Shown in pieces: positions 17,001 to 52,250 of a DNA stretch of 64,000 nt. Source of the DNA: a virus; the IMG/VR virus record IMGVR_UViG_3300010151_000010, positions 1-64,000 of that record. One strand, 5' to 3'. How positions within the stretch are numbered: the first letter of the stretch is position 1; each line of letters opens with the position of its first letter. The translations under genes and the position numbers were made by a program. Below the pieces are notes generated by a model. That model made no database searches, was not told the DNA's origin, and was given only the letters and a program-made list of their open reading frames with translations.

Positions 17001-20000
17001 TAATGGTCCAACGGGAGTGGCTGGTATACAGAACGCTAACGAGATATCTACCAGTTTCGCTATGATGGACTGCAATGCTATGTTTGCCTTCTTCCCCGGT
17101 GCGGCTCTCTGCAACCAACACAGAGGTAGTATCAATCCACCAGCATTCAATCGAGACAACATACTCTCACCAGATTTGGGTAGAGGGGGCTCACTTTACG
17201 CCAGCACAGGGGAGATAAAGGCCAAACCAGTTCCTCTCGTATTACGATTCACTCATCCTACAGCACGTTATGAAGACCATGTTGATGGAGTAGATATCGA
17301 CAACAAGACGACATATATCATCTTTGGACCGGGGCAGGCATTCCCATTCACACAGGAAGTCGCAGATGCTGCTTCGGGCCACAACACACTGGAGCCTTTC
17401 TCTGGTAGAATCATCTATACTGGTAATTCTTGGGCAAGCGTGCCCTCTTTAGGCGGTTCTAACAATAAGTTCCCGAACTCGATAGTCAATGACCAAGGAA
17501 AGTATAGACCGCACTCAAAATCATACTACAATGCTACTGCTGGCTTCCATTGGAAAGCGATGGTGAATTGGGAGACTCCTGCTGGATATTGTTGGAAGAA
17601 CTCGGCTAACAGTGGTAGTGCGGGCCTGTTCCAGAGGCCGGAGCATGGTAGGATGTATGGTCAGTTATTGAATGACGACTCAATACACAATGCAGAGGAT
17701 TTCGAGCAAGTGCATCCTAAAATGCATGTTCCACTTATCGGTTACGGCATTACGATGGGTGCCGATACGGTATTCCATATGGATGGGGGTTTCCACGCAG
17801 GTGGGTCTTGGTTAGATAATCAGTTTACGTTTAATCCAGTTCATCCAAAGAAGAATACTCGGATTACTGGTGGTAATTCATCAAGCACATGGACAAGAGA
17901 TAACCAGATTCATCCTACTGCTTTCAGAGTCGCTGGACCCTTGATGGCTACAATACAGGATTATATCGGTAGTAGCACAGATTTCTCAATTGGAAACACC
18001 AAGAACGAATACATCCTGATAGATGGGACAAGATGTCAGAATGGAGAAGAACTCGCAACTGTAGTAGGAGCAGCCATCAACGCTTTCCCCGGTGCTGGAG
18101 CACTCAAGAGTATGGGAGGCACTCACATGCCTTCTATGGGTAATGCAATGCGACAAGACCGCTATGGATGGGTAGATTTAGGCACTGTTGGCTCTTACAA
18201 TCATAGCACCTATCCGCAATATGTCGAAAGCGCCGTAAATGCCAGCCAAACACTATTGGAACAGATTCCCGCTTCGGGTTGGCTGAGAGTCAATACCGAT
18301 GATGACAGTGAAGGGGATTCTGTGGACCCCGGTTGGGCGGTGTATCACTCTCGTGACGTAATTGCTTCAGGAGGTGATTGGAAAGTAAGATTCCATCTTG
18401 CACCTAATGCGATAAGAGGCCAGACTGTATTTGAGTATGATACTACATGGGCTAATCACAAAGCAAGCAATGCAAATAGCAATCCTACGACTTTGAGTGG
18501 TAATCTGTATGTTTGGAGTAAAGCCGGAATAATGCAATTCAACAACGAAGATGTAAGTGCACGAGACCACATGACGCAAGTTCACTTCTCAGGCATAGTT
18601 GATGCAATAGACAGGACGAGGCCAGTAGGTGTGGCCGGTTGGCATGGAGAGCGGTATTCATATCTCAATAGTCTCAAGATAAGCACCAGCGTAACGAAGA
18701 ATGATTCGACTACTACAGCAACCGGATATGCTGCTGGATTAGGAGCATATCATTCAATGCTGGGATTCTCACCATACGGCTCTGCTGGTTCCGTTATGAG
18801 CACATACGGCACAGTTCCAGTAGTTGCTCCTATGCGACATAGTCCCGAAAGCACTCCTACCATCAATGGCGCAGGAGATAACCTTGATACTTACATCACG
18901 AAGGCAAGTCTGTATACAAATTATACATTAGATGCTAATGGGCGAACACCTGCTAATGGACAAGGCTACTTCAAGGACACAGATACTACGGATAACTCAA
19001 ACCAATGGGCAAAACCCACAAATTACGAGATATCAACCACTTTACCAAAGGAACTCTCATTGCCACAGGGATTGTATAGTAATGCATTCCTTGTAGTCAG
19101 TTACAACTCTGAAAGTTCTTTGATAGCGAAGTTCGATAGAGATGCAATTACGGCCACAGGTGATTGGTTACATGTTAAGGGCGAAGGAACTGACCCCATC
19201 CATTATGCTGGAACTACACTATGGGATGAAAGATTCCACGGTCAAGACCGCTTTATTGCACCTGCAAACGCTGGTCCTAATGTCGAGGCTCTAATTGTAG
19301 ATAACACAACTGTTCCAACGATAGCAAATGCTCTCGCAGACAATTCCTCTGATGCTCCATTTAATGGCGATGTCGGGACATATTTCCACGGTGCAGTATC
19401 AGATGACCTCAATCTCAAGAACGCAACACCCGGACGTGCTAAGACTGGTGATTTACTCTTCGATTTAGACTACTCTGTTGGTTCTGTGCTTCTTGAAAGT
19501 GAAGATGCAGAACGTAATGTATCTGATAACCATCAAGATATGGACGGCACTGGATATTCCTATACTGCAAGCGGGAACTATCCTAACGAGTATTGGATGG
19601 GTGACGTGAATGCATTTGACATGTATAAAAACTCAGCAGCAAAAAACTTCTCAGTCGAACACATAGTTTGGAAAAGAATGGATGGCGGCAATCTCAGTTT
19701 ACCCACTATCAACGCACGAGGCCTTGGTGCAGTGCCGTGGATGACGAGGGTGAAGAATAACACAGCCTACACTACAGGAGAAAAATTGTATGGGAATGTT
19801 AGATTTACTTTCGAGACAACAAATAGCGCTATGTTACCTGTGTTACAAGCGCAGGAACTTGCACACCCTGAGTTGATGAGGAAACACCCATACAAGATGG
19901 GGAATGTGCTTACTATACCGAATGAAGAGATACAATTCCAGAGTATTACTGTAACAGATGATGCGGGGCAAACACACAAGATAGAGGGTGGTAGTCCGCT

Positions 20001-23000
20001 GGGGACTATCATACGTGGCTTCCGCACGCCGGAAAATCGTGGCGTGGAAGGCAACGGACCAGCACTCGCTAACTCTGGAAAGACTCCTAATCTCAAAGTG
20101 CAACTACCGAATCCCGATTCCATACCGGGAAATATCGTAGTGCGCTCAGGATTCGACCCACTGCAAGCCTATCAGAACGAAACTATGGGAACAGGAGGTA
20201 TGATACACCCAGATTTAGGTGCCGACACAATAGGCCATCTTTTCGATAACAGTGTAGTGGGGCCAAGAAAAGGACCGACATACGAAGACCATAATTGGGA
20301 GAGAATAGACCCCATAACATTCGATTCTGAAGTAGGAGCATGGGTAAATAACGAGCCACTACATACGTCCTACGAATTACATGATAGGACTCTATTCTTC
20401 CATGTCTGTAAGATGGGACACAGTCACACTCATCGTTATCCGACTATTTACAGTCATACTAACGGTGTGGTAAACGATAGTGTATCGGTTACACAAACAC
20501 TTGGTGCAAATAATTGGAATGCTGAGACTGGCGTTCTTACAATAGACGGGGCACTGAATACTGAGGTTTTCAATGCAGGATTTGGAACGAAAGAGGCGAA
20601 GGACGGAAGAAAGTTCCTCAGAGTGTATAATCCCATAACGGATGAAGGAGTTGTTTGCTCATATCTTGCTGAAAATGATACAACCATGGAGATTGTAGGA
20701 GATGTTGATTTTACTGCCTTTATGGCGGAAAACACAACTACTGCTCTGAAAGTTGTTCCATCTTACTATATACCCGGTGGAAGCACGCGTTTCTTTGCGT
20801 CAAGACGCTTACGTGACCATGCTGAAGTATCTGGAAATTCCCCAGATATGGCCCATACGCGCTATTTTGCCAGTGATACGATAGCATACAATGCATACAG
20901 TAAACCAAAGATGACGCCTATGCCATATCCCAGAATGGGACATCACTTCATCACGCCCACAATGCCTATGCTGCCCGGACACTGGGCTCATCCTGCATAT
21001 CAGAGTCTGTATAATCGTCATCTTGCTGATTACAACATGAGTGTTGGATTCACAGATTCCGCTCGTTTCGACGAACACACCACTGCAATTAACAAGAAAT
21101 CGGGTATCAACAATTCTATGGTAACGCAATATGGCGGAACAGAAAGCACGTCACTGCAAGACAATACTCATCCAATGGATGCTGAAATCAACTTCAGTGG
21201 CATAAACGCAGCACCTTCTGGCCCAAGCGATATTCATGGTGGAGCATTCACTTTGATGTTTGAAACAGGCTTGAAGTATGACGGTTACGGTGTTTTGGCC
21301 TCTGCTGGTTCATTAGCGGGCGCAGTGAACAAAGCGGGCGGACATAGCATCGTTCTCGAAGCCGCAGCCAACTACACACTCGCAAAGCACTTCCCCGACC
21401 CTGCTGAAGTTGGAGCCTATCAAATCATCATACAACCAAATCTGTTCAATAACCAACTTGTTGGTTTCCACAACAACATCACTACAGAACTTACCAGTCA
21501 GCAAGTAAACACGGTAATAGGCATCAATGAGAGCACTGCAAAAGGCGGGCTAACATTAGTTTTGGCAAAAGCCACACAAGCAGATGTGCGTGGTTGTGAG
21601 GTATTCATCAACGAAGCCATGCTCGATGTTAATCCTGATTTCGGTAGTCAATTCACGAATACGCCTCCACTAATGCTTCATAATGCACATGGAATACAGA
21701 TGACGGAGTCTCCCGCATTTACAAGAAGAGGGTTTCCTTACTCAACTATGTTCTCAGACTCTTCGCCGGGTCACACATTACACATACCATGGTGGAGTAT
21801 ACTTCACAAGAACGGAGTGCCCGCGTCTAACTTCCGAAAACTATCGCAATATGCACCAGATGATTACTTCATGTATTCAAGAAATGGGTTTGGAAGTATA
21901 GGCAATCAACAAACTATCAATGGATATACCTCAACATACCTCGACATATACTCCAAACTACAACAAATTGTCAGTCTCAATCCAAAATGCATTGTTGAAT
22001 CCTTCAATACAGGTGGGACAATTACCGTAGACAATGCAAATCTATTCCCATTAACCTCTCATTACGCTCAGGAGATTGAATACACGGCAAAGAATGGGGA
22101 TATCTATTCTAAACCGTATACAAAGAGAAGCGGTAATGATGCTGCAAATGTGAATGTGCCTAATACCATCTATTTGGCTGCTAAATCAGGTGCAGATAAT
22201 TTCTGGGATAACATATACGATGGTGCAGAACTACGATTGTCGCATTCATACAATACATTATCTGCAAGTAAACTACTTACAGATAGAAAGAAGAGTGTAT
22301 TTGCGAATATACTACCAGATATAGTGAATGGTAATCGTGATACATATTCATCTCATATACCAGATGCTTTCTTATGTATGTGGCATCCTAATTTAGGAAG
22401 GCCAAATACATATTTTTCAGATAGTCGAACTACTTGGGGAAGTGTTGCTGTGGATAAAGCATCATATAATTCAATGCCAGAACACTTTGAGACTATACAT
22501 TATCATGATTTTACACATGCTATGAGTGCTGGACCATTTGACTTCCTAATTATGACACCTAACATATCGAAGACAGGAGAAACAGTTGCTGCTACAACTG
22601 GCACTGACCACCAAGCAGGAGGAACCGATGTAATGTTGAGCGGTTTCTGGCCTTGTGGGAGTCGTGGCGGCCCTCATGTCAGCAAACTTGACCTTTTCAG
22701 TTATGCAAGCGCATCTTGGAATGTGCACAATCACAGCGATGGAAATCCCAATTTCACTTCCAGCGACCTTCGAGAATGGGTAGATAGCGATGATGACGGC
22801 AGTTATTCTGTCTCTTCAGGCATTACAACGGCCGCTATGGGGTCTTCTCGAAGAAAACCGTATGGCTACCGTAACGCTATACGTCAAGCCTGTAACAGGC
22901 CTACATACGGTCTCAGTCCGACCAGAGCAGTCTATGAGGCAAGCCCAACAGGGTCGGGCATTAAAACCCTTGATTATGACGCTGGACCACTGGTTCAGAC

Positions 23001-24867
23001 TGAAACTGCGACATGGACTTATGCAGGCGGTTCGGGACTTTCCAATGCGACTCATCCTACCACATATGTTGGAATTATGGAAAGACAGACCAATTTCACA
23101 GGAATGCTGGCTCAAGACCAAGCGGACTGGCAAGTGCGTTATAGCGACGGTAGAAGGATGACCAGACCCTTTGGGACTCCTGTGAGAACACTAACCAATA
23201 ACGCAGGAACTCAAAGAGACTGGTGGGGAGATGAAGTGGCTATGGACAAAACAAGCCTATCTGAGGCCTCTCAGTATTATCTGGTGGATTGGTGGGGCAA
23301 CGAGCGCGGAGAGGACGTAAGGCGTGCTCCAGTGCGTGGATTCGGCATCAGACCGGCATGGGACTGTGGTGACGCTTATGAGAACGACAGAAGGAATAGC
23401 AGAAGCCCATATCGGAGAATCTGGAATAACGCTAAACCGATTTTCAATATGAAGGGCGTGGCTGACTTATCTAACGGCAATGTGAGCGTGACGACTACGA
23501 TACCGAGATTTGGTGGCACAAACAACGATGTGAATCTACACGCAACTAATACAGGTCATGATTTGGTAGATGTATTTGCGCCAACTCACTCTATGCGTGT
23601 AGGAGATATGGGTAATGGTCGCGGTGTGCGTTATCCAACGCGATTTAATGAGGATGTGCTTACTGAACTTTCGGCTCCTATCCATAAAACGGGTGTAGTC
23701 TTGAGTCATAATACTGCTGAACCTCTCTTCGGAGATGGTTTGCTGAGACCCCGTAACGCTATACTGCAAGCCGATGAAGTCAAGAGGGGGATTAGTGCTA
23801 AATTAGCGATAGACAGTAATGGGTTACTGAAGCCAGAGGCTGTCGCAAGTGATAGAATTGAAGAGTTTGTAGGCGTTTCTCCTCACAAGGATGCAATATC
23901 GAGAACAAGTCCCAGAATTGGAATAGACGCCGAAGTGACTGAAGGAATAGAGCAAAACCACATTGCTATCAATACTGAGGCGCATAGTCTTCATACAGAC
24001 AGAAATGTAGGTCAGCGGGTCATTCTACACGGTGGATTCCAAGTTGGCACTAACACGATAGCCGACGTTGATTATACAGGTGGCGCATTTGGAAGGCAGA
24101 ATAATGGCTCTCCAGTAAGTGCAGTGCATCGCTATTCTCACACTAATGCATTCAGACCCTATGGCGGTTCCTATGTGTTAGATGCAAGTAATTATGCTGG
24201 GTTATTTGATGATACGAATTGGGGAGTGGCTTCATTGACGGGAAGTAATGATACGAGCAATCCATATCAAGATGCAGATGACTACACCTCAAAATCAGTG
24301 AGAAACAACGAAAAAGACAAGAATGTAAAGTTCTTACTTCGACCAATTAGAACCTTAGACTCTAAACATACAGAGGTATATCGCATTCATAATTCAATTG
24401 TTACTGGCACTCCTCAATACGACCAGAATTACCTTTTTGCATCGTCTGGTGGAAAATATGGTCTCTTTACGTATGAAGTTAGTAATGGAAGAGCAGCCAC
24501 TGGGAATCTGGCATCTGGAAGAAGCCTACCGGACGGCAATGGACCCTACTTGCCAGTATTCGTATTCGACCCCACAGGGGCTTTCACGACACCAACGAGT
24601 TTCGGTCCTAAACTACCCGGAACAGAAGTTTCTGGATTCGACAAGGAGAGTCTAAACTCAACAGTGAGTAGATTAGTCATTTCTGATAATACGCTACAAC
24701 ATCATCGTTCCGATGCTCCAAGAAGGCGGCAAGAAGAAGATACAGATGACGAAATGAAGCGAATGGACTTCTCTGTTAAGCCAAGATTTAGTCAAGCGTT
24801 GCATTCTAAGGGGCACAAAGGGGACATTTCATTTAGCATCACGGACCATAGTGGGGATGGAGCATGA
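8029..24867 (+). CDS. giant virion protein (5612 aa), LamG-like N-terminus
   Basis: One uninterrupted frame of 5612 residues (roughly 0.6 MDa), led by GTGATGAT before the ATG. Residues ~1-235 look like a LamG/concanavalin-type beta-sandwich (FDGVSDSIIIPEGQF; LVIEAWIMPDCGGTVIEKEG; IELYVNGSIVVSKD). The rest is beta-rich, Asn/Gly/Ser/His/Trp-rich and unlike any family I recognise. An aspartate-rich calcium-type loop (DIDGDGDAD) is near residue 2510. The C-terminus is charged (RRRQEEDTDDE). It lies between distal-tail-like and hub-like genes and its stop overlaps the next start (ATGA), so it is probably a baseplate, central-fibre or receptor-binding component. No protease, glycosidase or transmembrane segment was recognised. 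Confidence 0.7.
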   Translation: MTVIGRSNHAFFFDGVSDSIIIPEGQFTALGHKTLDGASDVRNILDESPHGHRTLTPSSGKFSNYLVIEAWIMPDCGGTVIEKEGQFKLTVGNVDTPGPAVFEVFLKDGVSTQRFQLSTATKQSTRYEGTVYPSSSYGGIHDSYNRFTGLTYDDATDLNRNHRPLLHVVAAVKSTAIELYVNGSIVVSKDIKDTNFTLAKSNAHVYVGGKGGQFRGVIEAVHLNGGLKNTHITGNTPLPDGSTQLLYRFEEPISPIEGIYNITNIATNGTQVGGQSVTISQITLSDAEATALAKKLTGLSTVSGNYAFTSSPYSNGDYEITQSTSSGTTMRKIPHVPYNILVNPGSINPNTKIPNQTPPERLRLHNINVDTNTCLVSSIHLDFAATPTSGIRGMLHTSRSTDVDNHFVVIGADLLIDSGTGKPYQPPHFSSQIVDRTGQMVIDEGIFESHGFVYSSRMATTTSDPDNPYAVVWPTSLDAAFQIGHSGRHTLNHVDGHEFLRILPRANDEIIDQQIDGSADIIDIMYDDAQKGVDKQISVNSRVDVYREAGNFKINDVVNSSTVTAAFNSYHNTSSPPAGKKKLIAIGGPNFDFTPFMLKGPVPAWKGTFNDETRKFHLRPSKESRVALLHVPQLSSTNVKFAPYVEIHYNAVDLTGASMSGTTQPLLMVEKTVPASDVATGGGSYIYDAIINAIGSGKTLYSPGGYIDIAAIAELSLNSLAMPHSMIGDVSEGYSADDELDDSLTPYRFTDGVGAVNFTPRADADSIQNSPPKVIVESVSSTGTHESVFNRIALNKVEQKVNLTDKGLYSRVEPHTTADSPSAGEFDTATASSSTPIHEVFDIIDNIEIVDSPTSDTRIIIQPSDRRRTNQLTNVKSLVSTSDDANTASLMYLMSRARVRSIEETEGEGQNFTTIRCIGLSEAATSRSINEIGRGSPDSHIVKEIEPNSPVVTVTLGGPGQGAMDTKPTNQPSILAHEPYSSRRAFAAMAHKLVANFSNGADVLHVKAINNESADMQSWGTYGFPRYGRVYLADGSSGKYDSKNGTTFTFSLGALGSGDFVSSSGVEYTSMARLLNATGFLKGETSGTPTLEGIFTVYNEPDFGEQSRIENGSTVNDRMFQSMSDVSHDYQLGTQYASTRALAEIPFFSHQFFDSGVGPDNGFKIHIDATHTAHTWNPSPVGRRLKDVMPADREAQSAYSHALANREYINSTFITKWDASNKRLYVNDINVFPDATTSTGTYRGVTTAYRYRKVWLGNGEWAWYSGVNTGDKYLTIVDAEYGHTSNFLDGLDVGTPVFAGGIGFDDTLSPLASDEFTPSSDFEGRSEYYYDAASVKTQGGNVDYGLRQYASAVEFKAGPESNPHAAHMETKRATTTVLSATEYSLGTLLKAIVITVPDEDFSKFPSLGYDEMQNMPIGTGTLRYSVQYDDGTNVFDYQYHGHLKKLPLSPTVDIPENGLVLVYLQTTPLYPASLNGKKITLAKKCRDVISSNMTTALTTTSQMHPLWSELNDNLMIDTNIVITAQAANSSAPYTIEITNQTGKNVNDLHGLNVKKDDILYYKTTANVIHKIGTVTKVTEALANDKQTITLSAATPIIPANAKLAVRIGDYEDKDAILNAKWLNPYAPGGLRNGDTVWANMSYNNPHAVEGLFAKSRGVLNEAQVWKEFNGGKGDLDTTNPRDSIPLENFLIGNTCLETARNYVQHVNRTVEENYKALGLTAAQAPTVAYVDPYLAEDGHARVLLYDTAHDREFVAFQDIHMQVQSSAQAAEIGWPKEVVEDGGTSRSRLDKITATYNGSGPSPWTTQIDVANGFLSQNPYIRGTQQSKFIESAYAHDLANRHTLDLLESSTYRDSPIASGVLINKPLNPTYYSAGYTGAMVVDGVDATTVYSVGDTLFSSVGAIAGLITAISPTSITVGGGIAVQLANNQNLQSNVNLTLPDDGRKIAGARLYGKAHGHHVHTGYSFGGTVSGLSVDNSVTSRTNDSVALYKVADGYHSFTRIPVDSFDTFTNELVRLRNGTTNCSFRDPSTFFDTPDGTRVIPAFLCLKGIRSTTLDLSSHEESRLQHLPQWKDMDFVRRLTIDCGEVAQKDGVVNTEAAAQEIVRLINQHAALNARYTDGSAHDPAPFWHTDNNDRGTHMGYIRAHIGREVQDLNGDTGYTVVIHSTVPGATGRNFCTWLDNSTGQHPYQPQFLIGHGGRWRNFWALPEEGEGENMHPAPLPLNKHGRPFAPITTLQQYITAEESGEEVRSVAEFEEDSVLRAVSDTVSGKNHNTINNESFSLKGSSSTLVKGLRVGSRATSRINFGGLVASGVPGWAPDAGIWGFGKIGDTKFNKRYGSSSVTSYSSHVPTVDKLSDAIGSGQLYGFRLKDNVGSESGLRFVYRKMGDSFANENTTLPSTIEEEVCVFFDDRDVAQGGFTVGNHMHGTGDATGRMDFGVLSIESSSWKGARWRGVHAPSIAAYVGTAVSGTKMTITFPAPFDAAFSDDKLGYLGFPRENGLIQISDIDGDGDADVGLTLSYTRRDGNVFYGITGLPSWTDTNYLITPVLNWTTLVTDELMAAVTAAAINAGREVNTEDGHIFDCTEMYAADGRTFGEWGVSENAVRIRAYNTQKPVIPLNEAFSATLHRDFGIQAAHLEFGEVKKVTRPTGTADWDFDTGSNYATSRAVTDALIDDSRGIDCGYIPYTLLQIRSFARGPHANTATPNLVDSKNTPVNINEWRENLKGIRYTRSSGDHILPHIDTPHSVLNMGWTAIPTTPNLVTDYAAGYPIGWTDAIAIDTGNSANIAVGDIVATNNGKVVGEVTVVNGTASFTIGGGTQTSLPDGSIINKRLTGSAGGVGWLTSATLGAAMFHFMIPAGNDSGNIPSFGEKKKVWLNEKDSLFAESKRGATSSTVLSWDIENAEGNITRDAPYWNNLLSLSNNRDFDGLRSIGSVFSEPVVYFRGGKSSSDHSVPLYFGGGFSGVTLDVNDGTNNDYSTFYTHPYANGPTGVAGIQNANEISTSFAMMDCNAMFAFFPGAALCNQHRGSINPPAFNRDNILSPDLGRGGSLYASTGEIKAKPVPLVLRFTHPTARYEDHVDGVDIDNKTTYIIFGPGQAFPFTQEVADAASGHNTLEPFSGRIIYTGNSWASVPSLGGSNNKFPNSIVNDQGKYRPHSKSYYNATAGFHWKAMVNWETPAGYCWKNSANSGSAGLFQRPEHGRMYGQLLNDDSIHNAEDFEQVHPKMHVPLIGYGITMGADTVFHMDGGFHAGGSWLDNQFTFNPVHPKKNTRITGGNSSSTWTRDNQIHPTAFRVAGPLMATIQDYIGSSTDFSIGNTKNEYILIDGTRCQNGEELATVVGAAINAFPGAGALKSMGGTHMPSMGNAMRQDRYGWVDLGTVGSYNHSTYPQYVESAVNASQTLLEQIPASGWLRVNTDDDSEGDSVDPGWAVYHSRDVIASGGDWKVRFHLAPNAIRGQTVFEYDTTWANHKASNANSNPTTLSGNLYVWSKAGIMQFNNEDVSARDHMTQVHFSGIVDAIDRTRPVGVAGWHGERYSYLNSLKISTSVTKNDSTTTATGYAAGLGAYHSMLGFSPYGSAGSVMSTYGTVPVVAPMRHSPESTPTINGAGDNLDTYITKASLYTNYTLDANGRTPANGQGYFKDTDTTDNSNQWAKPTNYEISTTLPKELSLPQGLYSNAFLVVSYNSESSLIAKFDRDAITATGDWLHVKGEGTDPIHYAGTTLWDERFHGQDRFIAPANAGPNVEALIVDNTTVPTIANALADNSSDAPFNGDVGTYFHGAVSDDLNLKNATPGRAKTGDLLFDLDYSVGSVLLESEDAERNVSDNHQDMDGTGYSYTASGNYPNEYWMGDVNAFDMYKNSAAKNFSVEHIVWKRMDGGNLSLPTINARGLGAVPWMTRVKNNTAYTTGEKLYGNVRFTFETTNSAMLPVLQAQELAHPELMRKHPYKMGNVLTIPNEEIQFQSITVTDDAGQTHKIEGGSPLGTIIRGFRTPENRGVEGNGPALANSGKTPNLKVQLPNPDSIPGNIVVRSGFDPLQAYQNETMGTGGMIHPDLGADTIGHLFDNSVVGPRKGPTYEDHNWERIDPITFDSEVGAWVNNEPLHTSYELHDRTLFFHVCKMGHSHTHRYPTIYSHTNGVVNDSVSVTQTLGANNWNAETGVLTIDGALNTEVFNAGFGTKEAKDGRKFLRVYNPITDEGVVCSYLAENDTTMEIVGDVDFTAFMAENTTTALKVVPSYYIPGGSTRFFASRRLRDHAEVSGNSPDMAHTRYFASDTIAYNAYSKPKMTPMPYPRMGHHFITPTMPMLPGHWAHPAYQSLYNRHLADYNMSVGFTDSARFDEHTTAINKKSGINNSMVTQYGGTESTSLQDNTHPMDAEINFSGINAAPSGPSDIHGGAFTLMFETGLKYDGYGVLASAGSLAGAVNKAGGHSIVLEAAANYTLAKHFPDPAEVGAYQIIIQPNLFNNQLVGFHNNITTELTSQQVNTVIGINESTAKGGLTLVLAKATQADVRGCEVFINEAMLDVNPDFGSQFTNTPPLMLHNAHGIQMTESPAFTRRGFPYSTMFSDSSPGHTLHIPWWSILHKNGVPASNFRKLSQYAPDDYFMYSRNGFGSIGNQQTINGYTSTYLDIYSKLQQIVSLNPKCIVESFNTGGTITVDNANLFPLTSHYAQEIEYTAKNGDIYSKPYTKRSGNDAANVNVPNTIYLAAKSGADNFWDNIYDGAELRLSHSYNTLSASKLLTDRKKSVFANILPDIVNGNRDTYSSHIPDAFLCMWHPNLGRPNTYFSDSRTTWGSVAVDKASYNSMPEHFETIHYHDFTHAMSAGPFDFLIMTPNISKTGETVAATTGTDHQAGGTDVMLSGFWPCGSRGGPHVSKLDLFSYASASWNVHNHSDGNPNFTSSDLREWVDSDDDGSYSVSSGITTAAMGSSRRKPYGYRNAIRQACNRPTYGLSPTRAVYEASPTGSGIKTLDYDAGPLVQTETATWTYAGGSGLSNATHPTTYVGIMERQTNFTGMLAQDQADWQVRYSDGRRMTRPFGTPVRTLTNNAGTQRDWWGDEVAMDKTSLSEASQYYLVDWWGNERGEDVRRAPVRGFGIRPAWDCGDAYENDRRNSRSPYRRIWNNAKPIFNMKGVADLSNGNVSVTTTIPRFGGTNNDVNLHATNTGHDLVDVFAPTHSMRVGDMGNGRGVRYPTRFNEDVLTELSAPIHKTGVVLSHNTAEPLFGDGLLRPRNAILQADEVKRGISAKLAIDSNGLLKPEAVASDRIEEFVGVSPHKDAISRTSPRIGIDAEVTEGIEQNHIAINTEAHSLHTDRNVGQRVILHGGFQVGTNTIADVDYTGGAFGRQNNGSPVSAVHRYSHTNAFRPYGGSYVLDASNYAGLFDDTNWGVASLTGSNDTSNPYQDADDYTSKSVRNNEKDKNVKFLLRPIRTLDSKHTEVYRIHNSIVTGTPQYDQNYLFASSGGKYGLFTYEVSNGRAATGNLASGRSLPDGNGPYLPVFVFDPTGAFTTPTSFGPKLPGTEVSGFDKESLNSTVSRLVISDNTLQHHRSDAPRRRQEEDTDDEMKRMDFSVKPRFSQALHSKGHKGDISFSITDHSGDGA

Positions 24868-45066: not shown

Positions 45067-47460
45067 TCACCAATGGGTCTTGGGTTTTTGTCTCCCAATT
45101 GCCTCTCCAATATCCCAATCCAAAACCCGATATATGTTCTCAATTTTCTTTTCGATGAACTTCTGAACACACACGGCATAATCAATTTGGAAATCCTTGA
45201 CTTCATCTGCATCCCTAAATCCAACGACAAGAGTCGGAGGCATATCTTTGGGAGTTTGTAATACGTAGCACCACTGTGGGCTTTCTCCGACCCTAAAGGG
45301 ATTTTTAGGGTTGATGTGGTCATTGTAGTAATATGCCCCTCTTACAGCCATAGGCGGCGTTCTCTTGTATTCTGCCTTGCCTATTTTTCCATACGGTGAA
45401 AGCGCATCCCACGTCCAATTTCCTGCAAGAACGTCAAGTGATATTTCTCTAATCATCTTCGTGACTTCTTCTTCGTCTGCTCCTGTTCCGACTAAATCGA
45501 ATATCTTTCCTTGTATCGTCTTTGTGAGTGGAGATACGCTGGACGCTTTGTATGAGAATCCTGTCACCTTCAATTGCCCTTTCTTTTCGGGAGGCCAAAT
45601 CATAAATCCGAAGTTTTGATTTTTCACATCAGCGGTTAGCCAATAGTCGAAGTAGGCTTCTAACTCAATTTCCATCATGGGAAGTTCGTATCGAGTCCTA
45701 ATGATTTTGTTGAGGTTCTTGAGGTGAGCGTCTATCTCATCGAATGGAATCTGAATATAACCGGAATCGGTGTGGCCTGCGAGAGCCGCATAACCAGCCT
45801 TCTCGCTTTCCAGCAGAAGGGTGTTGATACACTCTCTTCCGTAGTAGGTAATAGTGCGACCCACATCGGGGTCTATCCATCCACCACTCACTTTCTTCTG
45901 AGACATATAGCCATAGATTGCGTTGGTTGCGACTTTGACAGCAGTCTGCAATAAATCCCATTTGAGTTTCTCGTCTTCGCTCTTTGCCGCCTTCATCTTC
46001 TTCTTGTAGTCTTGTCGTAATTCAAGCATACCCCAAATGATTGCAGGAATGACGCCTATGCCCGATGCCTCCTTTCTCCAATGCGTTCCGTTTCCAACGC
46101 TTCGGATTCCGTCGCCACCATTTTTCTGCTTTGTTGTCGGGCATAGATTCGCGTTATACGCTATTAGCGGGTACATGGACTTGAAGTCAATACAAGCGAC
46201 TCCTTCGTGTCGTCCACCAACGGTTTCCGGCACGTCTGCACCATCATATTGGTCGCGTTGGTGGTAGTGAGTGGTGAGAGCCTTTATGTCGGTATGGCGA
46301 GAGATACGCCCTCTTACAAAACGAGATACGTTACAGGTACTTTTGAAGACGACTCCACATTCTTTCTGCATAGCCAAATGGTAAGGTATCGCATTCACCT
46401 TTTCAGCACAATGCCTCAATAGTGTAGTGTCGCGCACACAGTAATCAACGAACTCATCGAAGTTCTCAACCCACCATGTAAATACATCAGCATCCATTTT
46501 CTTTCCCTGCTCACCTAACTCTTTGGCTAACTCTAAATCTTCTGCGATGGTTGCGAGTTTCTTGTTTCTGAATGTTCCACGTCCATTCTTCTGCCAAACT
46601 GCCTCCAATCCGCTTCCTGTATTCCACGCGAGCGCAGTGTCGTAAACGAGCCTTCCCAAAATTGGTTGAGCATTATCGTGGTAGCCATCCTTTTTACGCG
46701 GTCTTACTGTCTGCCCCAATGGACTGAGTTTGTCTGCTTTATTTCCTAAGCGTTCAACGAGTTTAGGCAAGTCGGCCCAATAGATGGCGTGGGCGATGAG
46801 AATGTCAGGGTTGCACTTATTCAAGTGCTTAAGAAAAGCGTCGAGCATTTTCTGTTCGCTTCCATAGAGGTATCTATCATACCCTCCTTCTCTTTCGATG
46901 TAGTCTATGGTGCAACCTTTCTCTCCTTCTTTCCAAGCGAATATCAATGGGCGGTTTCCCATAGTGTCGTCAATCGCAATCATGGTGATTGCCCCTTCAT
47001 GTTGACACCCTTCGGGTTGCCATTCCATATCGAAATACCAAATCCTCGGATGAAAGTCCGGTATGTCTTTGTTATCGGGGTAAGCATGAATCATCAATTG
47101 GTCTGCGTAAGGCATATCTGCCTCATAAGTCTGAATCTCACTCTTAATGTCGTAAAGGTGTATGGGATTAGGCACGTCGAGACGTATCAATGATGCTTTA
47201 TCTATCCCTTTCGCCTTAATGTCCGAGCGTACCCTAACGCCCGGATAGCGTGCAGTCAAACGAGACAATTTCTTCGGATGGGTGTTCTCCGCCACCCAAC
47301 AATGTGGGGGAATCCAAAGCGGGTTGTCAATGTCGGAGTTTTCGTTGGGATTTATCGCGTGTTCGATTACTTCCCCATCTGCTCTTCTATATCGGTAGTA
47401 AACGTGTGGATAACCAACGCCTTCCCACTCGTCATCGGGATAATAATAGTCGATTATCAT
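45067..47460 (-). CDS. family B DNA polymerase
   Basis: About 797 residues from ATG 47460 (an upstream in-frame GTG is less likely). Exonuclease motifs: ExoI WYFDMEWQ (~145), ExoII LIAHAIYWADLPKL and ExoIII YCVRDTTLL. Polymerase motif A is IDFKSMYPLIAYNA (~425), motif B KVATNAIYGYM (~508), and motif C AGHTDSGYI (~563). Motif C has His where the first Asp of DTD is usual; the second Asp is kept. The protein should be the replicative, proofreading polymerase. Preceded by a 32-residue zinc ribbon in ATGA overlap. Confidence 0.95.
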   Translation of the reverse strand: MIIDYYYPDDEWEGVGYPHVYYRYRRADGEVIEHAINPNENSDIDNPLWIPPHCWVAENTHPKKLSRLTARYPGVRVRSDIKAKGIDKASLIRLDVPNPIHLYDIKSEIQTYEADMPYADQLMIHAYPDNKDIPDFHPRIWYFDMEWQPEGCQHEGAITMIAIDDTMGNRPLIFAWKEGEKGCTIDYIEREGGYDRYLYGSEQKMLDAFLKHLNKCNPDILIAHAIYWADLPKLVERLGNKADKLSPLGQTVRPRKKDGYHDNAQPILGRLVYDTALAWNTGSGLEAVWQKNGRGTFRNKKLATIAEDLELAKELGEQGKKMDADVFTWWVENFDEFVDYCVRDTTLLRHCAEKVNAIPYHLAMQKECGVVFKSTCNVSRFVRGRISRHTDIKALTTHYHQRDQYDGADVPETVGGRHEGVACIDFKSMYPLIAYNANLCPTTKQKNGGDGIRSVGNGTHWRKEASGIGVIPAIIWGMLELRQDYKKKMKAAKSEDEKLKWDLLQTAVKVATNAIYGYMSQKKVSGGWIDPDVGRTITYYGRECINTLLLESEKAGYAALAGHTDSGYIQIPFDEIDAHLKNLNKIIRTRYELPMMEIELEAYFDYWLTADVKNQNFGFMIWPPEKKGQLKVTGFSYKASSVSPLTKTIQGKIFDLVGTGADEEEVTKMIREISLDVLAGNWTWDALSPYGKIGKAEYKRTPPMAVRGAYYYNDHINPKNPFRVGESPQWCYVLQTPKDMPPTLVVGFRDADEVKDFQIDYAVCVQKFIEKKIENIYRVLDWDIGEAIGRQKPKTHW

Positions 47461-47555
47461 TGAGCACACTTCCTACACAATAGTATCTGATTTTTGTTAG
47501 ACCACAAAGGCCCAAACTTGTGGCACTTACCACAACGTCCGATTTCCTTACTCAT
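47457..47555 (-). CDS. 32-residue zinc-ribbon microprotein
   Basis: The ORF MSKEIGRCGKCHKFG...LLCRKCAQ has two CxxC knuckles, enough for one zinc site. GGAGTGAGCCAGC precedes the ATG, and the TGA overlaps the polymerase ATG. The placement between clamp and polymerase genes suggests translational coupling with the replisome. Confidence 0.5.
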   Translation of the reverse strand: MSKEIGRCGKCHKFGPLWSNKNQILLCRKCAQ

Positions 47556-47561
47556 GCTGGC

Positions 47562-48341
47562 TCACTCCTGCTGGTCTATGATTATCAGTAATCTCTTCAA
47601 GTTTGTTTCGGTCTGCTCTATCACAAGCCCACTCGCATCACCGAAGTGAAAACGACACGTAGTGCCGCCATCCACTAAGCCAAGGCAAGGGAGCAACCAT
47701 GGACCGAAGTTAGACTTCACAGTCTTGATACCTTTCTTCTCAAGAGTCACATCAGTGACTGTGCTTGACGCGAATATCTTAGCATCATGAGTCTTACCCG
47801 CAGACGCAGAAATCTCTTCGTTCTCAACGTCCATTGTGACACTATAATCGGCCCCATATTTCGTCACGATGTTCTTCAATGAAGCGAGTTTGAGTATCTC
47901 GCTCATCTTCGTTCTCCCATGCACCGTGTAGGTATCAGCGCCAAACGTCTTCCACTTATTCCCCTTAGCCTCCTTCACGAGTTTGGCGTAGGTCTTGACC
48001 AATTGTTGGCTTTTGCTATCCGTCACAGGAAGCGACAGTTTGAATGAGCCGCTCGCCAAATATAGCGTGCTTCCGTTCTTCACTTGTTTTATCGTCACAT
48101 CTCCACTGCACTTCTTCAAGAATGCACAGGCTTTAGTGAGGTCTGAGAAAGTAAGTGGGCCTGCCTTTGCTTTAGCGTCAGGGTAGGCGCGAGATACATT
48201 GAGGAAGAAGGTCTGATAGCCTGCGCTATAACCGATAGCGTTTGGCGTCTCAAAGACGTTGATTACTAAATCACTAATCACGTCACTGAACTGCCCTACG
48301 TGGGCAAGCCACTCCTTGCTATCAAGCGTTATCTGCGCCAT
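47562..48341 (-). CDS. probable PCNA-like sliding clamp
   Basis: The 259-residue protein has the size of archaeal PCNA (~245-250) and a matching two-domain strand/helix pattern. The N-terminal domain starts MAQITLDSKEWLAHVGQFSDVIS; the C-terminal domain holds RTKMSEILKLASLKNIVTKYG, and the end reads FHFGDASGLVIEQTETNLKRLLIII. No PIP-type or other single motif is decisive and the sequence is divergent. Its place directly upstream of the DNA polymerase, with an RFC gene in the same arm, makes a clamp the best reading. GGGGTGAACGCAG precedes the ATG. Confidence 0.6.
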   Translation of the reverse strand: MAQITLDSKEWLAHVGQFSDVISDLVINVFETPNAIGYSAGYQTFFLNVSRAYPDAKAKAGPLTFSDLTKACAFLKKCSGDVTIKQVKNGSTLYLASGSFKLSLPVTDSKSQQLVKTYAKLVKEAKGNKWKTFGADTYTVHGRTKMSEILKLASLKNIVTKYGADYSVTMDVENEEISASAGKTHDAKIFASSTVTDVTLEKKGIKTVKSNFGPWLLPCLGLVDGGTTCRFHFGDASGLVIEQTETNLKRLLIIIDQQE

Positions 48342-48658: not shown

Positions 48659-49375
48659 TCACAGCCGCTCAAGTTCCGGCAGACCCATGAAGTTAGGCTC
48701 CTCGCCCTGTCTCGTTGTTAGGATAGTTCTCCGTTGCCCTTGTAGCGTGGCGTCAGTCTTGCTCTTCTCAAAGGCGGCTGTGAATGTTTCGCCTACAACC
48801 TTCCCGTCCTCAACCTCGTCCTTGCGACGACAGTGAACAATTTGGAACATATATCCAGCACTGCTCTTCTCCCATGCAGGCGCGCCATCGCTCTCAACTA
48901 TCTTACCGCCTTTACCGTATACGTCCTTCATGTGTGTCTCCCAAAAGACTCTCACGCCTCTCTTCACCAAAGCACGACAGACGGCAGTTAATTGGTGGAA
49001 TCGGGTGACTCTAATCGCCCAATCCCATTGTTGTTGCACTCTTTCGTTAGAGCCTGCACCACGATTGTCTGCGGCCTCTATACCATCCTTAGAGAGTCCT
49101 AAGTCCTGTATTCTCATACAGTTAGTTGCTACGCTATCCCATAGGTCTATGCCGGTAATTAGAACGCCCCACAAATCCTCGTGCTTCTCCATAGCGAACT
49201 GCATGATTTTCATCGTTCGGTCATGGGTAGCAGGGTAGTCGTAGGCAGTCCTCTCTCCCTTGAGATATACCCAAGGTTCCCAACACTTGATGCCCTCATT
49301 GTTTGGATAGTATGCTGACTTGGTAGCGGAGCCACCATTGTCGAAATCAACCACCCAAAACTGCTTCGCGCTCAT
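48659..49375 (-). CDS. RecA/RadA-like ATPase, C-terminal part (Walker B)
   Basis: The 238-residue protein begins MSAKQFWVVDFDNGGSATK, which looks like the second core strand of a RecA-type ATPase, and has a Walker B strand WGVLITGIDLWDS (~residue 70). It lacks a Walker A; that motif is in the adjacent upstream ORF. C-terminal strands (VRVFWETHMKDVYG; GYMFQIVHCRRKD) fit AAA_24/Sak4-like recombination ATPases. GAGGTGAAGGC precedes the ATG, so it can be translated separately. Magroviruses carry RadA-like genes. See the split-gene finding. Confidence 0.6.
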   Translation of the reverse strand: MSAKQFWVVDFDNGGSATKSAYYPNNEGIKCWEPWVYLKGERTAYDYPATHDRTMKIMQFAMEKHEDLWGVLITGIDLWDSVATNCMRIQDLGLSKDGIEAADNRGAGSNERVQQQWDWAIRVTRFHQLTAVCRALVKRGVRVFWETHMKDVYGKGGKIVESDGAPAWEKSSAGYMFQIVHCRRKDEVEDGKVVGETFTAAFEKSKTDATLQGQRRTILTTRQGEEPNFMGLPELERL

Positions 49376-49644
49376 GCCTTCACCTCATCAAACTCGACAA
49401 GAGTAGTTTGTCTGCCCTTCCCCTTATGCTTGTCGCAGTATCGCTGATAGAAGTCGAATATGATGGCACTCTTGCCCGTATTCTCCTTCCCCACTAACGC
49501 CATGAAGATGTGAGTCTTCGGTTTGTTAGCATTCACGTCTGCGAGTTCTGCACGTAGTTCCGCAAATGGGTCGGTGTTAGCAGCCTTGCTTGCCGACTTC
49601 TTCTCTTCCTGTGCTGCCTTTGTCTGTCCGAATCCCGCCATCAT
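49372..49644 (-). CDS. RecA/RadA-like ATPase, N-terminal part (Walker A)
   Basis: The 90-residue protein ends in the first half of a RecA-type core: THIFMALVGKENTGKSAII is a clear Walker A (~residues 45-63), followed by a helix and TTLVEFDEVKA. A disordered Lys/Ala/Glu-rich N-terminus precedes it. Its TGA overlaps the ATG of the Walker B half (ATGA). Neither half alone is a complete ATPase, so the two products probably assemble, unless a frameshift or assembly error split one gene. Confidence 0.6.
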   Translation of the reverse strand: MMAGFGQTKAAQEEKKSASKAANTDPFAELRAELADVNANKPKTHIFMALVGKENTGKSAIIFDFYQRYCDKHKGKGRQTTLVEFDEVKA

Positions 49645-49919
49645 TCACCACCATCCGTATCGTCTTCGACCGTTGAGAACATTCGATTCAGTTCTCCTAT
49701 GTCTCCCTTTAATTGGGTCATTGTTTGGTCAATCGTGTTAGCGAATCGCTCAAACGAGCGTAGGTAAGCCAACCTACGAGAATGCTCTTTCTCCATTAGG
49801 GTGGCTCGCGCAAATAGTTCATCATACCGAGCGATGGTGTCATTTAACTCCATCTTAAACTTGGTCAATTCTTCCTTCAATTCATCCTTAGTCATGTCTT
49901 TTTCTTTTTTCGTTGTCAT
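49641..49919 (-). CDS. coiled-coil protein
   Basis: About 92 residues from ATG 49919, which follows GGAGAGAAAAAA. Nearly the whole chain is predicted helix with heptad-like spacing (MTKDELKEELTKFKMELNDTIARY; RSFERFANTIDQTMTQLKGDI) and an acidic end (VEDDTDGGE). It sits between the RPA-like gene and the split ATPase, so it may be a recombination or replication accessory factor. No family recognised. Confidence 0.55.
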   Translation of the reverse strand: MTTKKEKDMTKDELKEELTKFKMELNDTIARYDELFARATLMEKEHSRRLAYLRSFERFANTIDQTMTQLKGDIGELNRMFSTVEDDTDGGE

Positions 49920-49933
49920 TTTTTTCTCTCCAT

Positions 49934-51277
49934 TCAATCGAATTGCGTTAAGTCGGTGTCTCCACCGCCCACTCGTCTTGTGGACCTTCTGTTGTCTGCA
50001 TAGACGCCCCATACTGTAATTTGTGGGAGTCTATTGCCGTCTTGCACCCTCATCTTTAATCTTCCATGAATGAGAACTGTGCTTTTCTCCGCGAAGCCCC
50101 ATAGTTCATCGTCCACGTCTATGAAGTGGAAGGGATGCGTTAAGTCGTGGCACGCGCCGCTTACCCAACATGGAATCTCGCCTCTATTCTTCGTTCCATA
50201 GGTGTCTTCGAGCGACCGTGATGTAATGGAGAGGCTAAAGTTCCTCCCCGTCTCATCCCACTCGGATTCCCTGCCCTCAGTGGACATTCTCGTGACTCTT
50301 CCCTTCACGATTATGTCTGGACCGATTGTGCCGTCGTTTCCATCTCGCCCTTTGAAGTGCCTCTTTCGTGAATCGAAGGCTTCTTCAAGTTCATGTAGCG
50401 GAACATACAAGTCATCTATTAGTTCCTCATCTGTCCATAATTTGAATGGGTTGAGAAGGCTTCTTTCGCTTTCTGGACACCACTCGTTTGTGTATGTCAT
50501 AGTTTCCGAGAAATTGAAGTTCGTTCCAAGCACGTCTTGGAATGCCTCGTTCTTCGATGTAGGTAGTCTCACCTGTATCTCCACAGGCACGCCAACGTGT
50601 ATTGGTAAGTGTGCGTTAGTGCCGGTCAAGTCCACTCGCCAAGGCTTTATCTCGCCTTGATTCAAGAATGCTCCCTTCTCGTTGCCCAAGAAGCGGTAAT
50701 ATCGCCCCATTCTTACACATGGATATGGTCGTCCTGCCTTCGATAATAGACATAGCCACTCATCTCCGACCTTGAAGCCCATAGTAGGCTCTTCCTCAGA
50801 AGTTTCCTCAGTCACTATCTGCTTGAGATTCGTGCTGATACACCATACGTCTCCTTCGACGTAGTAATGCCCCACGAGGCCAGACGAAAGTGCTTCGTTA
50901 GCGTCATCTGTCCATCTTTGTGTAGCGTTCCTAACTGCCCATCCGTTCCTGTCGTTCATCTTGTCTTCAACACCGAGCCATTCACCAACGAAGGTAAGCG
51001 TCTCTCCGCCTCCGCCGCTCACATTGGACTTTCGGTCCTCCATGAACATCATCTCGCTCCAATCAATCAGAAGGTCTGTGTCCTCTTTTTGCCAATCGTC
51101 GCAACCGTATGTTGTGGCTATGTGCTTAGTGTAGGCCGCTACGACCTTCTCGACGCTCTCGCCGGTCCTTTCGGCCTGCATTTTGAAGCGTTCCATGACC
51201 TCGGAAGGCCACTCCTTCTGTTCCTTCTCCGTTTTACTAAACGGATTCTTGCTATCTGTCTTCTTTTCTTCATTCAT
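49934..51277 (-). CDS. RPA-like single-stranded DNA-binding protein
   Basis: The 447-residue protein has an acidic/basic N-terminus with a helix (SEVMERFKMQAERTGESVEKVV) and at least two OB-fold-like strand sets: residues ~225-260 and ~320-425 (IIVKGRVTRMSTEGR; FSLSITSRSLEDT; TVLIHGRLKMRVQDGNRLPQ). It ends GGGDTDLTQFD, an acidic tail like those SSBs use to recruit partners. Being next to the clamp loader and recombination ATPase supports an RPA/SSB role, though no zinc finger is visible. Translation is coupled to the RFC gene by an eight-base overlap. Confidence 0.55.
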   Translation of the reverse strand: MNEEKKTDSKNPFSKTEKEQKEWPSEVMERFKMQAERTGESVEKVVAAYTKHIATTYGCDDWQKEDTDLLIDWSEMMFMEDRKSNVSGGGGETLTFVGEWLGVEDKMNDRNGWAVRNATQRWTDDANEALSSGLVGHYYVEGDVWCISTNLKQIVTEETSEEEPTMGFKVGDEWLCLLSKAGRPYPCVRMGRYYRFLGNEKGAFLNQGEIKPWRVDLTGTNAHLPIHVGVPVEIQVRLPTSKNEAFQDVLGTNFNFSETMTYTNEWCPESERSLLNPFKLWTDEELIDDLYVPLHELEEAFDSRKRHFKGRDGNDGTIGPDIIVKGRVTRMSTEGRESEWDETGRNFSLSITSRSLEDTYGTKNRGEIPCWVSGACHDLTHPFHFIDVDDELWGFAEKSTVLIHGRLKMRVQDGNRLPQITVWGVYADNRRSTRRVGGGDTDLTQFD

Positions 51278-52250
51278 TTTTCTTCACCTTTTCTCTCATT
51301 TTAGCCACCGCATAATCGCAGTAGGAGTAGTCATCGCCGGGCCATGTGTATCTATGCGTCATCACGTCGCCGTATGCCGCCATTATATCCCATATAGAAT
51401 CGAGGTTATCCTCTTCATCAAAGTAATCGTATATGTTCAGATAGAAGTTCCTCATTACTTGATGTAAGGAACGCCCGTTCTTGAGCATCTCATGGAAGTT
51501 ATTGCGCACTTTCCACCACTCGTCTCCTATGGCGTGGGCAATCGCATCCTCACCCATTGTTTCCTCTAAGCGCGATAGTCTCTCTCCTAATTGCTCTATA
51601 TCAATTGAATCGAGGAACATGATAGATGCACGCATATCACCGTTCATGAGTTCAATCAGATTCTGAAGTTTCTCGACTAATTTCCTTCTTTCATCTGTCG
51701 AATACTCAGCACGAATCTCAAGCAGACATTCATGGGGTAGCACTGAGAGTAGTCTCATCGCTCCCGGTCCTGCTGGCACAGGCGTAAACGCATACGCTTT
51801 GCATCGTGAGCGTATGGCTGGGCGTATCTTCTCTAATTCGTTGCACGTCATTATGACCATCGCATTGTGACTATACTTCTCTATCAATTGTCTCATAGCG
51901 TCTTGCGCGCTTGGTGTGAGGCCGTCTGCCTCATCGAGTAGGATGATTTTTCTCGGCGTTCCGAGAGGTTTGCTACGCATCGCAGACTTGAGTTCGTTGC
52001 GAATGAAGTCTATGCCCCTATCGTCGCTGGCGTTGCTCTCGATGAAGTTCATATCATTAAACCAATCATCGAGCAGTGTTCGCGCTATGACATGAGCCGA
52101 ACTCGTCTTACCCGTTCCCGGAGGCCCATAGAAGAGAAGGGCTTGAGGCCAATCATATGTATCGGCCCACCCATTTACGTCTGCAACGAGTTCGTCCAAC
52201 CCAACCAATTCGGTCAGGGTTTTCGGTATCGCCATTTCTGCGAGGTCCAT
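51270..52250 (-). CDS. clamp loader, RFC small subunit
   Basis: The 326-residue AAA+ protein begins MAIPKTLTELVGLDELVADV. It has Walker A LLFYGPPGTGKTSSAH (~40-55), Walker B RKIILLDEADGL (~105-116), sensor 1 MVIMTCNELEKI and the RFC-box SRC (IRSRCKAYAF), followed by an alpha-helical lid and collar. Length and motifs match archaeal RfcS. It would load the clamp onto primer-template DNA. No RFC large subunit is seen, so it may form a homo-pentamer or borrow the host's. A promoter motif lies ~24 bases upstream of the ATG with no ribosome-binding site, so its mRNA is probably leaderless. Confidence 0.95.
   Translation of the reverse strand: MDLAEMAIPKTLTELVGLDELVADVNGWADTYDWPQALLFYGPPGTGKTSSAHVIARTLLDDWFNDMNFIESNASDDRGIDFIRNELKSAMRSKPLGTPRKIILLDEADGLTPSAQDAMRQLIEKYSHNAMVIMTCNELEKIRPAIRSRCKAYAFTPVPAGPGAMRLLSVLPHECLLEIRAEYSTDERRKLVEKLQNLIELMNGDMRASIMFLDSIDIEQLGERLSRLEETMGEDAIAHAIGDEWWKVRNNFHEMLKNGRSLHQVMRNFYLNIYDYFDEEDNLDSIWDIMAAYGDVMTHRYTWPGDDYSYCDYAVAKMREKVKKNE

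Follow-up and report, generated by a model that had tools for sequence, protein, structure and literature searches.

Previously, replication enzymes made as two polypeptides have been described in phages. NrdA of Aeromonas phage Aeh1 is split and still functions, and the two parts of the split gp43 in Aeromonas phage 25 purify together and are active (PMC2988022). Fission of the mitochondrial cox2 gene constitutes another case (PMC5374615). Among the ATPases with a RecA core, Sak4 of phage HK620 (HkaL), an ssDNA-annealing protein, needs its cognate SSB (PMC5928155). The locus described here lies in the window (the whole 64,000-nucleotide stretch of viral DNA that was analysed). It resembles the two Aeromonas systems in that a probable replication enzyme is encoded in two polypeptides, with an extra gene between the halves in some relatives. 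However, the insert in those phages is a homing endonuclease or an untranslated spacer, whereas here the halves mostly meet in a bare ATGA overlap or are parted by a DUF3846 gene, and the cut crosses the NTP site. Split enzymes as such are already known in phages; for a split across the P-loop site, a limited literature search yielded no report, be it of a split RecA or of a gene cut between Walker A and Walker B.

The present analysis suggests, with a probability of roughly three in four, that the two genes (ORF1 and ORF2) encode one RecA-fold P-loop ATPase, which gene fission has cut at the surface linker joining helix 1 to strand 2 and which would be an obligate two-chain enzyme, reassembled non-covalently. 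Walker A and Walker B would then stand on different polypeptides, which is rare among P-loop ATPases, and the enzyme could serve to examine whether two chains can build an NTP site. Furthermore, this one viral gene offers a natural series of states: fused, recently split by a 49-nt insertion, split at an ATGA, split by a foreign gene, and probably re-fused. Thus, both fission and fusion of a gene can be traced and tested step by step.

Layout of the divided gene and its relatives

The sequence-only reading had placed Walker A in a 90-residue frame and Walker B in a 238-residue frame joined to it by an ATGA, with a GAGGTGA ribosome-binding site ahead of the second frame. All of these elements were found (Table 1). 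ORF1 comprises, in order, a conserved MAGFG motif, a low-confidence and variable linker, strand 1, the P-loop, helix 1 and a new C-terminal tail. It thus holds the P-loop strand and helix and no Walker B, and ORF2 holds the remainder and no P-loop. Purine-rich sites similar to the GAGGTGA element precede ORF2 in most split relatives. Because ATGA overlaps are usual in this operon, where the start of ORF1 overlaps the upstream gene likewise, the overlap by itself is not special. As read from the sequences, the noteworthy point is that one conserved domain is divided between two genes.

Table 1. Features of the locus and of its neighbourhood (positions in the window)
Feature	Position	Strand	Remarks
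Family B DNA polymerase (PolB)	45067..47469	(-)	
259-aa protein, putative sliding clamp (PCNA)	47562..48341	(-)	named from position only
ORF2, C-terminal chain, 238 aa	48659..49375	(-)	strand 2 with DFD, Walker B, ETH motif, KSK motif
KSK, ORF2 residues 204-206	48758..48766	(-)	counterpart of RecA K248-N-K250 by a sub-threshold but collinear alignment
Walker B strand WGVLITGID, ORF2 residues 69-77	49145..49171	(-)	Asp invariant; alignments
ORF1, N-terminal chain, 90 aa	49372..49644	(-)	homologous to residues 1-75 of fused relatives; purifying selection
ATGA stop-start overlap of ORF1 and ORF2	49372..49375	(-)	fission point
GAGGTGA, Shine-Dalgarno-like site for ORF2	49380..49386	(-)	within ORF1 coding sequence, 4 nt before ORF2 ATG
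PIP-box-like peptide QTTLVEF, ORF1 residues 79-85	49390..49410	(-)	unproven lead
Walker A GKENTGKS, ORF1 residues 52-59	49468..49491	(-)	sequence and family alignments
ORF1 N-terminus, MAGFG[KQ][AT]-type	49627..49644	(-)	conserved in most relatives; precedes the low-confidence linker
Small coiled-coil-like gene upstream of ORF1	49641..49919	(-)	
447-aa conserved neighbour	49934..51277	(-)	synteny; weak OB-fold Teb1 profile match, E 0.07
RFC small-subunit clamp loader	51270..52250	(-)	

The N-terminal motif of ORF1 may be taken as a lead towards a docking peptide, which it resembles. Its likeness to the RAD51 FxxA polymerisation motif is partial, position 4 being mostly Thr, and a RAD51-like role in polymerisation is likewise only a lead.

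A scan of IMG/VR with ORF2 returned 7 loci, and scans with alignments returned many more; split or fused architecture was assigned by tblastn and reading frames. After dereplication there were 86 distinct protein rows, 74 of them fused and 12 split (nine with adjoining genes and three with a gene between the halves). Two neighbouring genes thus match consecutive parts of one continuous homologue, as in naturally split phage enzymes. In fused relatives, the linker that leads from the helix behind Walker A to the following strand varies in length. The model of one such relative, L005, has this helix at residues 57-74, the linker at 75-84 and strand 2 at 85-90. The cut falls within this variable linker in all 12 split rows, in agreement with the earlier placement of the split in a linker after the first helix. 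The splits recur in independent contigs at 70-98% identity, and since these come from different samples, a local error is not the cause. ORF2 finds a single match in the 78,777-base viral record; therefore, no second intact copy exists there.

Both halves are conserved. In either half, dN lies far below dS for most of the split and of the fused pairs; between the window and L001, for instance, dN and dS are 0.014 and 0.096 in the N half and 0.007 and 0.182 in the C half. Across the clade, synonymous sites have reached saturation. The short N half of the split L084 compared with the fused L043 is less clear (0.033/0.060). Judged by these rates, both chains look needed.

These observations allow a mechanism to be proposed. 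One operon would give both chains. ORF2 would be initiated at its own Shine-Dalgarno site, probably in coupling with termination of ORF1 at the ATGA, and reinitiation there, aided by the local ribosome-binding site, should bring the chains to near-equal amounts. Walker A, helix 1 and the central strand of the P-loop would come from ORF1; everything else, the DFD carboxylate, Walker B and KSK among it, would come from ORF2, and the two chains would co-fold without a covalent bond. The P-loop strand is central in the RecA fold, and ORF1 and ORF2 should therefore co-fold. It is unlikely that each ORF has a complete fold of its own, given that ORF1 provides no more of the single domain than its P-loop strand and helix. 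The assembled enzyme would probably be a RecA/UvsX-like ssDNA-dependent ATPase working alongside the polymerase, clamp and clamp loader of the virus.

Identity of the protein and its gene neighbourhood

The AF2 model of the fused L005 had a pLDDT of 81.3 and a pTM of 0.79. In a Foldseek search of the PDB, its top matches were all RecA/RAD51 (E 5e-8, prob 1.00, TM about 0.4), so that model and structure search together predict a RecA-fold ATPase core of the RecA/RAD51 family. A comparison with viral models ranked two unnamed proteins first (TM 0.69, 20% identity) and phage AAA-ATPases and recombinases after them. An hhalign comparison with a RecA alignment was collinear over 200 columns, pairing Walker A, DAE with DFD, NQ with ETH and K248-N-K250 with KSK, at a Prob of 6% and P of 0.006, which is below threshold. 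The Walker A Lys and the Walker B Asp are invariant in the family alignment, and the Walker A form GHENTGKS resembles GPESSGKT of RecA.

The protein is therefore like the RecA/RAD51/UvsX core in its predicted fold, in its best PDB matches and in its collinear motifs, including KxK. In contrast to that core, it has no significant sequence membership, a C-terminal RecA domain is not evident, and the core is here in two chains. Sequence and profile comparisons gave no significant similarity to RecA/RAD51 and no Pfam or NCBIfam RecA match. None of the curated families (Pfam, PHROG, NCBIfam) was convincingly matched, the family profile found chance matches only among PDB sequences, and the fused protein had no match in the phages collection. 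We consider the protein, on the strength of its modelled fold, to be a RecA-fold ATPase, probably RecA/UvsX-like, with family membership unproven. The earlier label "RecA-type" accordingly holds for the fold, as seen in the structure search, and in sequence goes as far as a collinear alignment below threshold.

That reading had also called the protein Sak4-like. Both are stand-alone viral RecA-core ATPases, and a possible SSB, as HK620 Sak4 has in its cognate partner, would here be the conserved 447-aa neighbour. However, the protein is larger than Sak4, has other motifs after the P-loop, and matches the Sak4 profiles (PHROG 124/PF13479) by hhalign over 16 columns at Walker A only. Sak4 membership was rejected on the profile comparison, and the sequence lends the earlier name no support. 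Only 1 of 46 members weakly matches phrog_124 (E 0.07).

In most relatives the gene order is RFC clamp loader, 447-aa protein, ATPase, 259-aa protein and PolB. The 447-aa protein is possibly an OB-fold ssDNA-binding protein, as its profile match hints; for the 259-aa neighbour, sequence searches gave no PCNA match. Taken together, fold and gene neighbourhood make a recombinase function plausible.

The gene set includes PolB, RFC, a thermosome, an ERCC4 nuclease and a PD-(D/E)XK nuclease, and the genes for PolB, clamp loader and archaeal chaperonin lie in one 78,777-base virus record. Like magroviruses (Magrovirales; Aoguangviridae profile, PMC10768690), the window has PolB, clamp loader, primase-like and chaperonin genes. 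The record fits the magroviruses, an assignment made by gene content only (PMC10768690), and the viruses with the split ATPase resemble viruses of marine archaea. The genome map in the Aoguangviridae profile labels PolB-NTD/CTD, and no mention of a split RecA-fold ATPase was found in that profile (PMC10768690). In the phages collection only distant PolB matches were obtained, haloviruses being the best.

Two further observations concern the viruses themselves. The structural module of the window contains a single unusually long ORF of 5612 aa (8029-24867, plus strand), probably a tail or adsorption protein. A fused copy of the ATPase, with about 49% identity to the query, lies on a bacterial MAG contig labelled Maricaulis (L100, NZMJ01000138.1), which is probably a viral contig wrongly binned.

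Fission, probable re-fusion and the inserted gene

On the trees (one with 63 rows, the other with 86), no fewer than four changes of state between split and fused are needed. They fall on the window clade, the split pair L063/L098 (sister to the fused L040), L084 (nested among the fused L043, L044 and L093) and, within the window clade, the pair L005/L006, which is fused. As reconstructed, this requires at least three independent fissions, all at the same linker. A single split origin was rejected, both for the window clade with L063/L098 (AU p 6e-6) and for all split rows (AU p 2e-6). A clade of the nine window-clade split rows without L005/L006 was rejected as well (AU p 0.008). L005/L006 carry a Met (DGMEPKKFWVIDFD) at the site where ORF2 starts in split relatives, in the same GGCATG context as in the window. 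Since the pair is nested in the split clade and has Met at the old ORF2 start, re-fusion is the simplest reading; it was probably re-fused, the alternative being extra independent splits. The split of L084 is recent. Compared with L043, its linker has gained 49 inserted nt, and these supply the new tail and the stop of the first frame as well as a GGAGTGA site and the new ATG for the second.

In L003, L004 and L018 the halves are separated by a DUF3846 gene (Pfam PF12957, E 6e-11 to 2e-6). In L018 (3640-4020), an 11-base direct repeat, AATGAGCGATA, occurs at the start of the DUF3846 gene and at the start of ORF2. Deletion between the two copies would yield exactly the junction of the near relative L013, and the repeat thus offers a ready route for clean excision. 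Because the other DUF3846 copies are 52-56% identical to that of L003, one old insertion followed by several losses is possible.

The claim that the gene is naturally split is borne out by conservation across lineages, selection on both halves, the lack of a second intact copy and the gene inserted in three contigs. The alignment of homologues proposed along with it showed the split to be conserved in independent contigs. Relatives with a continuous frame, named beforehand as evidence against it, do exist (L005/L006; L043 next to L084), but they represent fission and fusion events and are no proof of error.

How the fission arose is a question of origin, and the answer that we moderately favour is compatible with the two-chain ATPase. 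According to it, fission was neutral in origin (constructive neutral evolution): insertions split a tolerant linker, reinitiation balances the parts, and re-fusion or gene insertion follows at the same place. Three independent splits with a likely re-fusion, the variable linker lengths, the insertion of an unrelated gene and the lack of any common sequence among the tails of independent splits are all consistent with such a course. Less easily accommodated is the retention of the split through large divergence in the window clade, part of which has a conserved tail.

Alternative readings

The conserved tail raises the question whether the fission itself is functional, the freed C-terminus of ORF1 tying the ATPase to the viral sliding clamp through the PIP-box-like QTTLVEF. 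The pattern QT[TNK]LxxF is kept in the window, L001, L003, L012 and L015 across saturated synonymous sites. When the final 20 residues of 32 window genes were compared, no gene end but this one had a motif of the kind (P about 0.012; about 1% expected by chance per gene end), and the putative clamp gene lies two genes downstream. However, the pattern is missing in L004, L007, L063 and L084, and is therefore not required for the split; it is also missing in the fused linkers that were compared. Moreover, position 8 lacks a hydrophobic residue, the codons at the end of the tail have to specify the ribosome-binding site as well, and the identity of the clamp is putative. Given the partial absence of the motif, its non-hydrophobic position 8 and the double duty of its codons, we regard the clamp tether as a doubtful proposal.

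Even more doubtful is an extension of it, an obligate two-chain RecA-like recombinase with an ATP site shared between the chains. One chain would then bear Walker A and the other Walker B together with the catalytic carboxylate, the freed C-terminus would have become a clamp-binding peptide, and nucleotide binding could be gated by assembly or by clamp docking.

Programmed ribosomal frameshifting could in principle join both frames into one chain in vivo, as the frames overlap and adjoin in the window. It is very improbable. In L003, L004 and L018 a whole DUF3846 gene parts the halves, which excludes it there. In several members, including the window, a stop codon situated 0-4 codons ahead of the ATG closes the frame of ORF2. 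ORF2 has its own start codon and ribosome-binding site, and no conserved slippery site was seen when looked for by eye.

Sequencing error, assembly error or a decaying pseudogene is scarcely credible: although a nonsense codon at ORF2 codon 7 of L016 indicates that some copies may be damaged, the same split occurs in contigs of different samples at 70-98% identity, both halves are under strong purifying selection, and the overlap and ribosome-binding site recur.

A split intein was also considered and rejected, the tails being under about 20 residues and no intein sequence being seen. The codon change in L016 (IMGVR_UViG_3300010148_000052) is a C to T that turns CAA into TAA, on a contig otherwise near-identical to L012, and reflects either a damaged copy or a sequence error. 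Outside this family, the RecA of Enterococcus phage phi EF7H (LC596377.1, 73319-74487) matches E. coli RecA in two pieces, which may perhaps be due to an intron or to another split recA.
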